From contig JAADJB010000008.1 of NCBI GenBank assembly GCA_013151035.1, positions 99,208 to 148,345 of the forward strand: a stretch of 49,138 bases of DNA, given 5' to 3'. Both the position numbers and the translations under genes were made by a program. The notes under the pieces are model-generated. The model saw only the letters and a list, made by a program, of their open reading frames with translations, was not told the DNA's origin and ran no database searches. This document shows positions 7,335 to 14,684 of the stretch, one piece after another (position 1 is the first letter of the stretch; each line of letters opens with the position of its first letter). This DNA is from Gammaproteobacteria bacterium. Lineage in GTDB: Bacteria; Pseudomonadota; Gammaproteobacteria; JAADJB01.

Positions 7335-8141
7335 ATGGATAGCAATAGCATCGTAGATGTCAAAAATGTAAGCTTCTCCCGTGGACAACGGCGGATATTC
7401 GAGGATATCAGCTTTTCCATTCCACGCGGGAAAATAACAGCGATTATGGGTCCCAGTGGAACCGGTAAGACGACCTTGTTACGCCTAATGGGTGGGCAGT
7501 TACGGCCTTCTTCGGGTAGTGTCCATGTGCTGGGTGAGGATGTTGCCCGTTTGAATACCCGTCGTTTGTATCAATTGCGTCAGCGTATGGGGATGTTGTT
7601 TCAAAGCGGTGCCTTGTTAACAGATTTAAGTGTGTTTGAGAATGTAGCTTTTCCCTTGCGTGAACACACAGATCTTGCAGAAATAATGATTCGTGATCTG
7701 GTGTTGATGAAGTTACAGGCAGTGGGCTTGCGTGGTGCACGAGATTTGATGCCGGAAGAACTGTCCGGGGGTATGGCGCGGCGGGTTGCTCTGGCGCGGG
7801 CGATTGTCCTTGATCCGACCATGGTGATGTATGATGAGCCTTTTACTGGGCAAGATCCGATCTCGATGGGTATTTTGGTGCAATTGATTCACAGTCTGAA
7901 TCAAGCGTTGGATATTACCTCGATTATTGTGACCCATGACGTGCGCGAGGCTCTGGCTATCGCTGATCATATTATCCTGATCTCTGAGGGTCGGGTTGTT
8001 GAGCAGGGTAAATCCGATCAACTCGGTGATTCAGGTTCACCCTGGGTTAAACAATTTTTACAGGGTATGCCGGATGGCCCCGTGCCTTTTCATTATCCTG
8101 CGCCTGACTTTTCTACTGAGTTATTTGCATCAGAGACATGA
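7335..8141 (+). CDS. mlaF: Phospholipid ABC transporter ATPase MlaF
   Basis: This 268-residue ABC ATPase has Walker A GPSGTGKT (39-46), an LSGGM signature and Walker [14 protein letters not shown]. The Gly-Gln-Asp after the Walker B glutamate is typical of MlaF/Mkl ATPases. With MlaE, MlaD and MlaB it moves phospholipids between the inner membrane and periplasmic MlaC, keeping the outer membrane asymmetric. It is the first gene of the operon and overlaps mlaE by 4 bases. The start has no visible ribosome binding site, but no alternative start is available. Confidence 0.97.
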
Positions 8142-8941
8142 ATAAATCGCTATCTCATTTGCTGGATGCTTTTGCCTGGATGGGGCGCAAAGGATTAAAT
8201 TTTTTTATGCGTCTGGGGCGTGCTCACCTGTTCTTGTTTAAAATTCTGTGGGGGCTGGGTTACGTCCTTGGCAGAGGTCGCCTGGTTATTGCTCAGGTAC
8301 ATAATCTGGGTGTCTTATCGTTACTGATTACTATTGTTTCGGGTCTGTTTGTTGGTATGGTTCTGGGCTTACAAGGTTATAATACCCTGGTCGATTTTGG
8401 TGCAGAGGAGTCGCTGGGTGTGCTGGTGGCGTTATCACTGGTGCGTGAGTTAGGTCCGGTGGTTGCGGGTTTATTATTTGCCGGTCGGGCAGGTTCTGCA
8501 CTAACGGCTGAAATTGGCTTGATGAAGGCCACTGAACAGTTGTCAGGGATGGAGATGATGGCGGTTGATCCCATCAAACGCGTAATTGCCCCAAGGTTGA
8601 TAGCGGGTTTTATTTCATTACCTCTGTTAACAGCTATATTTGCCGCAGTCGGGGTGTTTGGTGGGTATTTTGTCGCGATTGGTCTGCTGGGTGTCGATAG
8701 TGGTGCCTTTTGGTCACAGATGCAGGCCAAAGTTGATTTGTATGAAGATGTTTATAATGGGATAATCAAGAGTGTTGTGTTTGGTTTTGTGGTGACCTGG
8801 ATTGCGGTTTTTGAGGGTTACGACAGCGTGCCAACCTCTCAGGGTGTCAGTGCTGCAACTACACGTACTGTGGTGCATAGTTCGCTGGCAGTATTAGCAC
8901 TGGATTTTGTTCTGACTGCGCTGATGTTCGGGGATTATTAA
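8138..8941 (+). CDS. mlaE: Phospholipid ABC transporter permease MlaE
   Basis: The protein has 267 residues and matches the MlaE/YrbE permease family: [20 protein letters not shown], then the conserved [20 protein letters not shown] and [21 protein letters not shown] coupling segments, with about five hydrophobic helices. It forms the membrane dimer of the MlaFEDB complex. The start overlaps the mlaF stop (ATGA) and mlaD follows after 6 bases. Confidence 0.97.
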
Positions 8942-8947
8942 TAGATT

Positions 8948-9412
8948 ATGGATAGAGAACGATTATTAGAGATTACTGTGGGGATGTTTGTGGCAGCGGG
9001 TTTGGCTGGCTTGCTGGTACTTGCTTTACAGGTTAGTAATCTGGGTTCATTGATCGAAAATAATGGCTATCAGATATCGGCCAATTTCGAGAATATTGGT
9101 GGTTTGAAGGTGCGAGCACCGGTGACTGTATCCGGTGTCAAGATTGGTAAGGTGACTGCTATTAATTATAATGATGAAGATTTTGAAGCGGTGGTAATCA
9201 TGGAAATTAACGACCGTTTTCGACGTTTTCCAATTGATACCTCAGCAATGATTTATACCTCGGGTTTATTAGGCGAGCAGTATATTGCGCTTGATCCAGG
9301 AGGGGAAGATGCCGTCCTGGTTGATGGCAGCCATCTGTCCATGACTCAATCGGCAATAGTGCTGGAAAAGATGATTGGTCAATTTCTGTTTAAGCAGGCA
9401 GAGGGTCAATAG
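8948..9412 (+). CDS. mlaD: Mla substrate-binding MCE protein MlaD
   Basis: The protein has 154 residues with an N-terminal membrane anchor (about residues 8-27) and one MCE domain. The domain pattern is YQISANFENIGGLKVRAPVT followed by VSGVKIGKV and DTSAMIYTSGLLGEQYIALDPGG. MlaD hexamers form the periplasmic ring that receives lipid from MlaFE. The length is typical for single-MCE MlaD proteins. The next gene (TolC-like) starts 2 bases after its stop. Confidence 0.96.
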   Translation: MDRERLLEITVGMFVAAGLAGLLVLALQVSNLGSLIENNGYQISANFENIGGLKVRAPVTVSGVKIGKVTAINYNDEDFEAVVIMEINDRFRRFPIDTSAMIYTSGLLGEQYIALDPGGEDAVLVDGSHLSMTQSAIVLEKMIGQFLFKQAEGQ

Positions 9413-9414
9413 GG

Positions 9415-10776
9415 TTGAAAGTTTTTTTTATTTTTTTACTGGCCTTTTTGTTGCCTGTTACGCCATCAGTTGCTGAGAAATTCACTCTGCAACAGGCTAT
9501 TGACCGCGCCCTGCAACAAGATCCCCGAATTCAGGAACGTAAGCACAATGTTGCAGCCGCCCGCGCTTTGTTGAAAGAGGCATTGGGTAGTGATGATTTC
9601 TTTATCGATGCTAATGCTTTTATGGGCATTGTGCCCGGAGTGGAGGGTGGCTTATATCAGAATGGTGCTAAGACCTGTGTTTCTCCCTGCCCCTTGCGCA
9701 GGGATGTCTATGATTTTAATGATGGTCTTTCATTATGGACCTCGGTTCAGGTCAAACTCATTAAACCGTTGTATACCTTTGGTAAGGTCTCTAACTATGC
9801 TGAGGCTGCCCAGGGTAACGTTGATGTGAAACGAGGCGATGTGTCTTTGCAAAGAAATCAGACCCGACTTGATGTGGCAACGGCCTATTATGGCTATCTT
9901 GCGGCACGTGATACGCGTTATCTATTGCAGGATGTCAGTAAGCGTTTGGATAAGGCGCTGGATCTGGTGAATAGCTGGCTGGATTCTGATAGTGGGCAAG
10001 TCAAGCAATCGGACAAGTTTGCTCTGGAGACAGGGATTGCAACATTGAATCGTTATCTGGCCGAAGCCCAGGCAATTGAGAATATTGCCATGTCGGGTTT
10101 ACACTTGTTGTTGGGCGTGGCGCATGATGAAACGCTGGAACTGGTTGATCGCAAAATTCGTCCCTTACCCTTACCGGATATGGATCTGGATGAATTGCGT
10201 GACAAGGCCTTGACGCAGCGCCCTGAGATTGATCAGTTAAAGGCAGGTTTACGTGCCCGCCGTGCCTTGGTGCTGGCAAAGAAAGCCGACAAAATGCCGA
10301 ATATATACACTGGTATTATTGCCTCATTTGCTAATGCAACCAATCGTGATGAATTAAAAAACCCTTATGTGATTGACCCGTTTAATCATTATGCGGCTAC
10401 TCCTGTGTTGGGTCTCAAGTGGGACTGGTCAGATGGTGTGCAGTCGGCTAGAGTTGCGCGTGCCCAGGCTGAGTTGGATGCGTTGATAGCCAAACGTTCC
10501 TATGCCCGTATCGGGATTCCGTTTGAGGTTGAAGAGCAATATTACCAGGTGCTTGCACATTATCGTGCGGTGGAAGAGATGCGCCTTGCCAGTCGTGCGG
10601 GGAGACGCTGGATGATCAGTAGTTATTCGGACTTTGAAGCTGGGTTTGAAGAGTCGACCAAGGTCATTGAGGCATTTAAATCCTATGTGTTGGCACATAG
10701 TGAATATCTGAAAATGGTGAATGATTATAATATCTATGTCCTGCGCCTGGATAATGTGACAGGGGTTCAGCATTGA
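9415..10776 (+). CDS. TolC-family outer-membrane protein within the mla operon
   Basis: The protein has 453 residues with a signal peptide (cut near SVA, about residue 20) and TolC/OEP architecture: FTLQQAIDRALQQDPRI at the N-terminus and two halves rich in long helices, each with a predicted strand pair. A Cys-x3-Cys pair (CVSPC) lies in the first extracellular-side segment. The start is TTG at 9415, 2 bases after mlaD, and the stop overlaps the mlaC ATG. Known TolC proteins form trimeric channels through outer membrane and periplasm. In many beta- and gammaproteobacterial mla operons this position holds the lipoprotein MlaA (VacJ), and no mlaA is present in this window. A role with Mla is inferred from position only. 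Confidence 0.85.
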   Translation: MKVFFIFLLAFLLPVTPSVAEKFTLQQAIDRALQQDPRIQERKHNVAAARALLKEALGSDDFFIDANAFMGIVPGVEGGLYQNGAKTCVSPCPLRRDVYDFNDGLSLWTSVQVKLIKPLYTFGKVSNYAEAAQGNVDVKRGDVSLQRNQTRLDVATAYYGYLAARDTRYLLQDVSKRLDKALDLVNSWLDSDSGQVKQSDKFALETGIATLNRYLAEAQAIENIAMSGLHLLLGVAHDETLELVDRKIRPLPLPDMDLDELRDKALTQRPEIDQLKAGLRARRALVLAKKADKMPNIYTGIIASFANATNRDELKNPYVIDPFNHYAATPVLGLKWDWSDGVQSARVARAQAELDALIAKRSYARIGIPFEVEEQYYQVLAHYRAVEEMRLASRAGRRWMISSYSDFEAGFEESTKVIEAFKSYVLAHSEYLKMVNDYNIYVLRLDNVTGVQH

Positions 10777-11396
10777 TGTCTCTTGTACAGGGTAAATTGT
10801 TTTTTTTAGGTCTATTGATGATGGCTCTGCATGTCAACGTCCATGCTGCACAGATGGAACCTGTCCCGCAGAAAATAATAAGAGAGGCAACAGATCAGTT
10901 GCTTGAGCGATTCAGGCAGGAGGAGATGTTAATTCGGACTCAACCGGGTAAGCTTTATGACCTGGTGGTGGATGTCGTTGTTCCTACCTTTGATTTCTGG
11001 CGTATGTCACGTTGGGTGCTGGGAAAATACTGGCGTAAGGCAAGTGTCAAACAACGGCAACGTTTTGTTGTTGAATTTCAGCAGATGTTGGTGCGAACCT
11101 ATAGCGCAGCCTTACTGGAATATAAGGGTCAGGAACTGGTTTTTTTGCCGATGAAAGGGCCATCAAAAAGGGGGGAGGTCACGGTTCGGGTCGAGATAGA
11201 GCAGGCCGGGGCATTTCCTATCCCAATATCCTATCGTCTTTATCAAAAGGACAATGAATGGAAGATCTTTGATGTCAAGATTGATGAGATCAGTATGGTC
11301 TCCAATTACCGTACAACCTTTGGTTCCGAGATCCGTAAGCATGGCATCGACTGGCTTATTCGTGAGTTAGCAGCCAAGAATGGTAAGAAGAATTGA
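10776..11396 (+). CDS. mlaC: Periplasmic phospholipid-binding protein MlaC
   Basis: The protein has 206 residues with a signal peptide ending near HVNVHA (about residue 24) and the Tol-Tol-Ttg2/MlaC domain. Diagnostic stretches are DVVVPTFDFWRMSRWVLGKYWR, FVVEFQQMLVRTYSAALLEY and DEISMVSNYRTTFGSEI. MlaC shuttles phospholipid between MlaD and the outer membrane. The ATG at 10776 overlaps the stop of the TolC-like gene; a TTG three bases upstream is a less likely start. Confidence 0.96.
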   Translation: MSLVQGKLFFLGLLMMALHVNVHAAQMEPVPQKIIREATDQLLERFRQEEMLIRTQPGKLYDLVVDVVVPTFDFWRMSRWVLGKYWRKASVKQRQRFVVEFQQMLVRTYSAALLEYKGQELVFLPMKGPSKRGEVTVRVEIEQAGAFPIPISYRLYQKDNEWKIFDVKIDEISMVSNYRTTFGSEIRKHGIDWLIRELAAKNGKKN

Positions 11397-11397
11397 T

Positions 11398-11706
11398 ATG
11401 ACCCTGGCTGGGCTGGAATCAATCTCTGAGTATCGTTTCAGGCTTACCGGTGGGTTAACCCTGTCGTCAGTGGCGGAGCTGAATCAGTTGTTTTACGCAC
11501 AGGTGCCCGTTATCGATGGCGTGAGCATTGAGCTGGATGCGGTCAGGCGGGTGGATAGCGCCGGGTTGGTTTTACTGTTGAGCTGGATGCGTCTATTCAA
11601 GACGCAGGGCATCGCTATTCGTTTTCTTGATCCGAGCGCACAAATGCGATCAATTGCCGAGCTAAGTGATCTTGATAGTATCCTATTTTCAGACACAGGA
11701 TCATAG
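11398..11706 (+). CDS. mlaB: STAS-domain protein MlaB
   Basis: The protein has about 102 residues and a STAS fold. The central pattern VSIELDAVRRVDSAGLVLLLSWMRLF matches the anti-anti-sigma-like loop of MlaB, with the conserved DSAG. MlaB binds MlaF and is needed for its activity. The ATG at 11398 was chosen because it has an AAGAAG ribosome binding site; an in-frame ATG at 11380 inside mlaC would add six residues. It closes the Mla set; ibaG, often next, is absent. Confidence 0.9.
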   Translation: MTLAGLESISEYRFRLTGGLTLSSVAELNQLFYAQVPVIDGVSIELDAVRRVDSAGLVLLLSWMRLFKTQGIAIRFLDPSAQMRSIAELSDLDSILFSDTGS

Positions 11707-11708
11707 GC

Positions 11709-12635
11709 ATGTCTAGCGCTATTCAGTTTAGTCATTTATCAAAACGATTTGACCATCTTCAAGCACTGGATGATATTGATTTTGTGATTAATGAAGGTGA
11801 GTTTTTTGGCTTATTGGGTATGAATGGGGCAGGAAAATCAACCTTGATTCATATTATGGCGGGTCTGTTGCGAGCTAGTTCGGGTAGCATCAAGGTGTTT
11901 GGTCAGGATGTGGTGCAGGACTATCGTGCCACGCGCCAGATGTTGGGTGTGGTGCCTCAGGAAATTGCCTATGACCCGTTTTTTACTGTGCAGGAGATAT
12001 TACATCTGCAATCCGGGTATTTTGGTTTTGGTCAGGAAAATCATGCCTGGATTGGTGAATTGCTAGAGACATTGAGTCTGTCAGATAAGGCCGATGAGAA
12101 TATTAGTCGCCTTTCCGGTGGTATGAAGCGTCGTGTCTTGATTGCCCAGGCACTTGTTCATCATCCGCGCGTTATTGTGCTGGATGAACCAACTGCCGGT
12201 GTTGATGTTGATTTGCGCAAGGCCTTGTGGGAGTTCTCTCAACGTCTACATCAGCAGGGGCACACGGTGTTGCTAACCACCCATTATCTGGAAGAGGCAG
12301 AACATTTATGTGAGCGTATAGCCATTCTTGATCAAGGTCACCTGTGTGCATTGGATGATACTAAAAACTTGTTATCACAGTATCCTTATCGTCTGCTATG
12401 TCTGACGTTAAAGAATAAGAATGATGTGTTGCCACCGGAACTACAGAAAAAACAACTGGAGTCCAGTGGTGATCAAAGGGTGCTACGTATACACCGGACG
12501 GAAGATCCCATCCTGCAGGTGCTCGATACGATTAAGGAAGCCGGCATTGAAATCCTTGATCTAAAGATGAAGGAACCGACACTGGAAGATGTCTTTCTTA
12601 AACTGACCCACGGACATCGTGCGGAGCGCATTTGA
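11709..12635 (+). CDS. yadG: ABC-2 type exporter ATPase (YadG-like)
   Basis: This 308-residue ABC ATPase has Walker A GMNGAGKS (about 36-43), signature LSGGMKRR, Walker B VIVLDEPTAGVD and the extended C-terminal domain of the CcmA/YadG drug- and polysaccharide-export subfamily. It pairs with the permease directly downstream. The substrate is unknown. It starts 2 bases after mlaB, so it is probably co-transcribed with the Mla genes; the gene content between mlaB and murA differs from E. coli. Confidence 0.9.
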   Translation: MSSAIQFSHLSKRFDHLQALDDIDFVINEGEFFGLLGMNGAGKSTLIHIMAGLLRASSGSIKVFGQDVVQDYRATRQMLGVVPQEIAYDPFFTVQEILHLQSGYFGFGQENHAWIGELLETLSLSDKADENISRLSGGMKRRVLIAQALVHHPRVIVLDEPTAGVDVDLRKALWEFSQRLHQQGHTVLLTTHYLEEAEHLCERIAILDQGHLCALDDTKNLLSQYPYRLLCLTLKNKNDVLPPELQKKQLESSGDQRVLRIHRTEDPILQVLDTIKEAGIEILDLKMKEPTLEDVFLKLTHGHRAERI

Positions 12636-12636
12636 T

Positions 12637-14684
<2,048 letters not shown>

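Follow-up and report, generated by a model that had tools for sequence, protein, structure and literature searches.

A TolC-like outer-membrane protein encoded within an mla operon of the gammaproteobacterial genome studied here (the source genome) probably serves as the outer-membrane partner of MlaC in the place of MlaA. We call this protein, and the clade to which it belongs, TolC-M. In Escherichia coli, the outer-membrane partner of MlaC is MlaA together with a trimeric porin, and the outer-membrane step of the Mla pathway, its direction included, is still debated. If our assignment is correct, a second and unrelated fold in the place of MlaA would separate what this step needs from the particulars of MlaA, TolC-type channels would gain a function in partnership with a soluble carrier of lipid, and Mla systems that look incomplete in MlaA searches would be explained. 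Roughly one in eight of the genomes sampled from the class is affected by the finding, and many of these belong to sulfur and sediment bacteria.

A TolC-like gene within an mla operon

The window (the whole stretch of DNA analysed, 49,138 nt) contains one tight gene run, mlaF-E-D-tolC-C-B, at positions 7335-11706, as delimited by open reading frames and by Pfam and NCBIfam searches. MlaF, MlaE, MlaD, MlaC and MlaB of the Mla system are all present together in this operon. The genes, and the sites within them that are discussed below, are as follows.

7335..8141, + strand: mlaF, ABC ATPase (PF00005, 109 bits; best NCBIfam match PRK11831 MlaF, 393 bits, below the cut-off of 441)
8138..8941, + strand: mlaE, permease (PF02405, 247 bits; NF033619, 409 bits, above the cut-off of 315)
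8948..9412, + strand: mlaD, short MCE protein of 154 aa (PF02470, 78 bits; TIGR04430 OM_asym_MlaD, 180 bits, above the cut-off of 135)
9415..10776, + strand: tolC-M, TolC-like outer-membrane factor of 453 aa with a TTG start (PF02321; AlphaFold2; Foldseek)
9676..9690, + strand: codons of C88-x3-C92 in TolC-M, between predicted strands 63-74 and 105-120, first beta hairpin
9976..10026, + strand: N-repeat tip of the periplasmic helices of TolC-M, codons 188-204 (WLDSDSGQVKQSDKFAL), with two more residues than the tip of ordinary TolC paralogues
10603..10671, + strand: RRW and the C-repeat tip DFEAGxEExxK of TolC-M, codons 397-419 (alignment of 48 relatives against nine paralogues)
10776..11396, + strand: mlaC, periplasmic lipid-binding shuttle (PF05494, 184 bits; AlphaFold2, pLDDT 85)
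11214..11216, + strand: codon F147 of MlaC, partner-tracking site at the beginning of strand 146-158
11380..11706, + strand: mlaB, STAS protein (PF13466, 49 bits; PF01740, 32 bits)

NCBIfam cut-offs are passed by MlaE and MlaD, and the equivalog cut-offs are missed by MlaF, MlaC and MlaB. The original prediction, made from the sequence of the window, placed a TolC-like gene between mlaD and mlaC and coupled to both, and the coordinates, read directly in the sequence, bear this out: two bases lie between the end of mlaD and the TTG of tolC-M, and the TGA stop of tolC-M (10774-10776) overlaps the ATG of mlaC by one base (10776). This ATG is the start of mlaC; an in-frame TTG at 10773 is a mechanical reading-frame start. 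Downstream of mlaB are an ABC-2 transporter pair (ATPase and permease, 11709-13401) and then murA and hisG; the pair between mlaB and murA occurs in some TolC-M loci and is missing from others.

The prediction was also right that no mlaA lies in the window, in that none is found among the Mla genes there, but its hint that mlaA might be missing from the genome was wrong. The genome-wide search that it proposed, carried out with PF04333 on the whole source genome (2.4 Mb, 97.65% complete), detects a single MlaA, which scores 224 bits and is encoded on a different contig (G000:C10:19513-20085). There mlaA is flanked by mlaD2 and mlaC2 in a second operon, mlaE2-D2-mlaA-C2. The source genome has two Mla operons in which the same slot holds a different gene, tolC-M in one and mlaA in the other; TolC-M serves one of them and MlaA is kept in the other. 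The statement that many related operons have mlaA in this slot is only partly right: among the related loci read, it is correct for L170 and L171 and for the mlaE2-D2-A-C2 type (L026 and L139), whereas mlaD and mlaC are adjacent in most MlaA-positive genomes. An oppositely oriented mlaF paralogue converges on the second operon (L026:6015-9466, on G000:C10); an operon of the same type is found in genome G305 (L139).

Distribution of TolC-M and its coupling to mlaC

An alignment-based search identified TolC-M in 44 of the 369 genomes sampled from the class; the 44 belong to 21 families. The scores are separated by a wide gap: all 44 proteins reach at least 440 bits, followed by a split fragment at 112 bits and then by matches of at most 72 bits. 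With the TolC-M protein as query against 56 genomes (the source genome and relatives), five strong matches (428-557 bits) were obtained in other families, all encoded in mlaFED-tolC-mlaC operons that adjoin murA-hisG. A scan of named genomes with the single protein found no relative; relatives there were recovered with an alignment of six homologues as the query. At the resulting 80 named loci, mlaC directly follows tolC-M in every case with sufficient sequence (78/78), and mlaD is immediately upstream in 65. Among the hosts are Sulfuriferula multivorans, Sulfurimicrobium, Sulfuricella, Sideroxydans, Candidatus Tenderia, Chromatiaceae and the Olavius algarvensis Gamma 3 symbiont; S. multivorans (L095) was the only named isolate encountered. 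Relatives of about 30% identity, also in mlaFED-tolC-mlaC order, occur in three genomes from outside the class. In genome G369, mlaC seemed to be missing only because BLAST overlooked it, and an HMM places mlaC right after tolC.

The arrangement is not a matter of chance, because it recurs in 21 families. The original prediction had named two observations that together would speak against its reading of the gene, a normal mlaA elsewhere in the genome and a TolC clade found as often beside unrelated transporters as beside mla. The first of these was found, as described above; the survey of neighbors, in contrast, finds the clade only beside mlaC and not beside unrelated transporters.

Near-exclusion of TolC-M and MlaA

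MlaA is found in 286 of the 369 genomes, and its distribution is strongly skewed: it occurs in 4 of 44 genomes with TolC-M compared to 282 of 325 without it (Fisher p = 1e-25). Among the 341 genomes with MlaC, the corresponding counts are 4 of 44 and 277 of 297 (p = 2e-32), and MlaA is also missing from the three tolC-M genomes outside the class. Relatedness as the sole cause of this exclusion is countered by a tree of 71 genomes, built from MurA and HisG taken from the loci (a tree of MurA alone was used as well), on which independent and dependent two-trait Markov models were compared (Pagel test). With MlaA-positive comparison genomes picked by the analyst at about their natural share, the likelihood ratio is 40.0 (4 df, p = 4e-8), and in the fitted rates MlaA is lost almost only where TolC-M is present. 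Only three independent swaps on strongly supported branches could be scored, and these agree with the expectation (sign test p = 0.25). The possibility that MlaA was merely missed by the search was rejected, as the hits are bimodal, with a best E value per genome of at most 1e-48 where MlaA is found and none at 0.001 elsewhere. A complete single-contig genome (G034) is also without MlaA.

TolC-M and MlaA occur together in four genomes, namely the source genome, G100, G127 and G196. The last three could be swap intermediates or cases of division of labor; in each of them (L140, L141 and L142) a lone mlaA lies away from the mla operon. Another 20 genomes have MlaC and neither of the two proteins (G016, G091, G093, G116, G162, G316, G356 and 13 others). 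Some of these are incomplete assemblies, and others may use a third outer-membrane partner. The overall pattern is correlative, and the 20 genomes with neither protein and the four with both are consistent with a loss of MlaA for another cause, such as the loss of its trimeric porin, TolC-M being an additional and unrelated member of the operon. We consider this very unlikely given the correlated evolution on the tree, with MlaA loss rates confined almost entirely to lineages with TolC-M, and the conserved coupling of tolC-M to mlaC.

TolC-M and MlaC as the stable unit

MlaC is kept in all 44 TolC-M genomes and MlaE in 42. Genomes G264 and G360 (97% and 92% complete) keep the coupled tolC-mlaC pair, and neither has MlaE or an MCE-domain protein anywhere in the genome. 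Their pair (L137:9773-11730 and L138:7004-8967) adjoins murA-hisG, where the sister genome G153 has the full operon, and 15 of the 80 named loci locally resemble this arrangement. In two loci (L145 and L087) mlaD and tolC are separated by other sequence; no insertion between tolC and mlaC was seen in the loci read. At L145:8497-10647, the two unrelated genes between mlaD and tolC are dehydrogenase-like and LysR-like by sequence appearance. The survival of the pair after loss of MlaFED, together with insertions on the mlaD side only, indicates that the stable unit is TolC-M plus MlaC.

These observations bear on the possibility of a trans-envelope conduit, in which the hexameric MlaD ring would replace a membrane-fusion protein and dock the TolC-M trimer, MlaFEDB-TolC-M would move a lipid or another hydrophobic compound through, and MlaC would load the conduit or fill a gap in it. 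The 3:6 symmetry fits, as in TolC with MacA or AcrA. The position of mlaD directly upstream of tolC-M in most named loci is consistent with such a conduit, as is the finding that Pfam and NCBIfam searches identify no membrane-fusion protein among the Mla genes of the locus. An mlaEFD-tolC arrangement is also known in Veillonella (PMC10665443). Nevertheless, we consider a conduit unlikely. The tolC-mlaC pair outlives the full loss of MlaE and MCE proteins, insertions part tolC from mlaD and never from mlaC in the loci read, and MlaD is short, at 154 aa.

A partner-tracking site in MlaC

Residues that differ with the partner were sought by comparing 41 TolC-M-linked MlaC sequences with 57 MlaC sequences from other operons, using 50 label shuffles. 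Position 147 stands out, with Phe in 28 of 41 TolC-M-linked sequences and 1 of 57 others (divergence 0.67, compared to a shuffle maximum of 0.32); sites 142, 134 and 170 are next in divergence. No clear signal comes from the MlaD and MlaE proteins of these operons (0.31 and 0.30, with shuffle maxima of 0.27 and 0.31). Their lack of such a difference argues against operon ancestry alone as the source of the group difference in MlaC, and the lack of clear partner-tracking sites in MlaD is a further point against a conduit through that protein. F147 goes with TolC-M on an MlaC tree built without that site, although scorable pairs are too few for significance. It is missing from 13 of the 41 TolC-M-linked proteins, whole families included, and as a mark of the partner is a trend rather than a rule.

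In the AlphaFold2 model of MlaC (pLDDT 85), F147 directly follows a hairpin turn, and in E. coli MlaC the aligned residue is a Pro. Contacts with MlaA have been reported for K128 and also for V171 and S172, and contacts with MlaD for I130, R147 and R153 (PMC10719372, PMC10245069). By alignment, the F147-equivalent site is near reported MlaA and MlaD contact residues in the E. coli sequence, with V171 and S172 further on.

Fold and helix tips of TolC-M

TolC-M matches PF02321 (OEP) in two stretches, with 104.2 bits against a gathering cut-off of 22, and reaches 65.4 bits with TIGR01844 (efflux/type I secretion TolC), short of the curated cut-off of 225.15. A single-sequence search of the PDB gave only spurious matches and no outer-membrane factor. 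The chain was modelled with AlphaFold2 from 48 homologues (pLDDT 89.5), as a single chain; a trimer in the outer membrane is predicted by family. The model has helices at 124-191, 198-233, 340-408 and 414-449, two of them 68 and 69 residues long, and four long strands. Foldseek matches it to structures of TolC, OprN, OprM and CusC with E values down to 1e-18, the best PDB matches being TolC, OprN and OprM. As modelled, TolC-M has the fold of TolC, in which each chain contributes four strands to the barrel and has long helices in the periplasm. TolC-M thus resembles the TolC/OprM/CusC factors in its fold, its two-repeat helical barrel and its PF02321 domain, but is too distant in sequence for a single-sequence match in the PDB.

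The tips of the periplasmic helices also set TolC-M apart. When 48 TolC-M sequences were compared with nine OEP paralogues from the same class, the paralogue tip motifs VGLxxITDV and VGTRTxVDV were missing, with GxxKQSD and AGLEExxKV in their place. D200 in the N-repeat tip is invariant (48/48), and the C-repeat tip reads FEAGLEExxKV where ordinary paralogues have FEVGTRTxVDV. Position 416 is K or R in 41 of 48 TolC-M sequences and D or E in seven of nine paralogues, while RRW (397-399) is invariant in TolC-M only; a GIP motif is likewise invariant in TolC-M. In E. coli TolC, the corresponding tip is the docking site of membrane-fusion proteins and makes up the aperture. By analogy, the changed tip implies that the partner of TolC-M there is likely different from that of ordinary TolC.

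The PF02321 domain and the TolC fold would also be expected of an ordinary efflux outer-membrane factor that sits in the operon by happenstance. We give this explanation hardly any credence, as TolC-M was not found away from mlaC, its scores are far from those of other TolC proteins (at least 440 compared to at most 112 bits), the ordinary tip motif is gone, and each of the five TolC-M genomes that were tested has further OEP proteins. The Cys-x3-Cys pair noticed earlier is real: C88 and C92 are each Cys in 30 of the 48 relatives, and thus common rather than universal. Provided that TolC-M follows the TolC topology, their position between strands 63-74 and 105-120 would place them in the loop at the cell surface within the first beta hairpin.

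A proposed role for TolC-M in lipid transport

The proposal in the original prediction that the protein is an alternative outer-membrane partner for MlaC is well supported by the genomic evidence, that is, by the near-exclusivity with MlaA, the fixed tolC-mlaC adjacency and the persistence of the pair in genomes that have lost MlaFED. The source genome, on the other hand, also has mlaA, and the partnership itself is a predicted one. We infer physical contact between MlaC and TolC-M, a phospholipid cargo and a role in outer-membrane lipid balance. Phospholipid would be exchanged between MlaFEDB and MlaC at the inner membrane, and MlaC would cross the periplasm and dock on the long portion of the TolC-M trimer that lies in the periplasm, as it does on MlaA elsewhere, through a contact surface around the F147-bearing beta hairpin. 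Lipid would then move between MlaC and the outer membrane at TolC-M, by default in the retrograde direction, by analogy.

The chief difficulty for this model is how lipid enters or leaves a TolC-type tunnel. TolC channels are hydrophilic tunnels, and no lateral gate for lipid is known in them. Exchange at the outer surface or membrane-proximal part of TolC-M and transit through its lumen are equally possible. An efflux-like lipid route, the other suggestion of the original prediction, and lipid exchange at the outer membrane would look alike in the present analyses. We propose only tentatively, and with more doubt than confidence, that what truly accepts lipid from MlaC, or donates lipid to it, at the outer membrane is the TolC-fold trimer, such that TolC-type proteins can exchange phospholipid with a soluble periplasmic carrier, in some lineages without MCE proteins or MlaFED.

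Alternatively, TolC-M and MlaC could export a lipid or another hydrophobic molecule to the surface or beyond, fed by MlaFEDB where present and apart from the maintenance of asymmetry. TolC-fold proteins as a class are export ducts, the tip and aperture residues are altered (K or R at 416, where paralogues have D or E), and two genomes hold MlaC and TolC-M without the inner-membrane complex. Export is distinctly unlikely, however: the near-exclusion of MlaA suggests the same role as MlaA rather than an added one, and no biosynthetic genes consistently accompany TolC-M in the loci read.

Relation to known systems

No report of a proteobacterial mla-tolC arrangement was found in the open-access literature searched. 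The TolC-M arrangement is a variant of the Mla system that is new so far as this literature shows, and the results suggest an unrecognised outer-membrane end of the Mla lipid pathway in many uncultured and sulfur-oxidising gammaproteobacteria. The nearest precedent is the mlaEFD-tolC-tamB cluster of Veillonella parvula, which is reported to occur in all Negativicutes, where MlaA and MlaC are missing (PMC10665443). The phylogenomic analysis of that study scored MlaA-F, and TolC in proteobacterial operons is not discussed in the sections consulted (PMC10665443). The likeness to V. parvula is that tolC comes directly after the mla genes for the inner-membrane complex and that MlaA is missing. Veillonella, however, lacks MlaC, and its MlaD is long and has a predicted outer-membrane barrel; in the sections consulted, its TolC is used as an outer-membrane marker and stands outside the proposed model (PMC10665443). 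In contrast to this minimal MlaEFD type, MlaD here has 154 aa, MlaC is found in every case, and its gene is coupled to tolC.

The Brucella Mpc system, a chimeric Mla-Pqi, is similar in having an Mla-type ABC/MCE complex with an outer-membrane component other than MlaA (PMC12436622). It has a needle-like MpcD, a PqiC-like lipoprotein and no MlaC, whereas the system described here has a TolC-fold protein with MlaC (PMC12436622). Homologues of MlaF, MlaE, short MlaD, MlaC and MlaB in one operon are shared with the OmpC/F-MlaA-MlaC-MlaFEDB system of E. coli, from which the present one differs in the TolC-fold protein encoded between mlaD and mlaC and in the absence of MlaA from 40 of the 44 TolC-M genomes.
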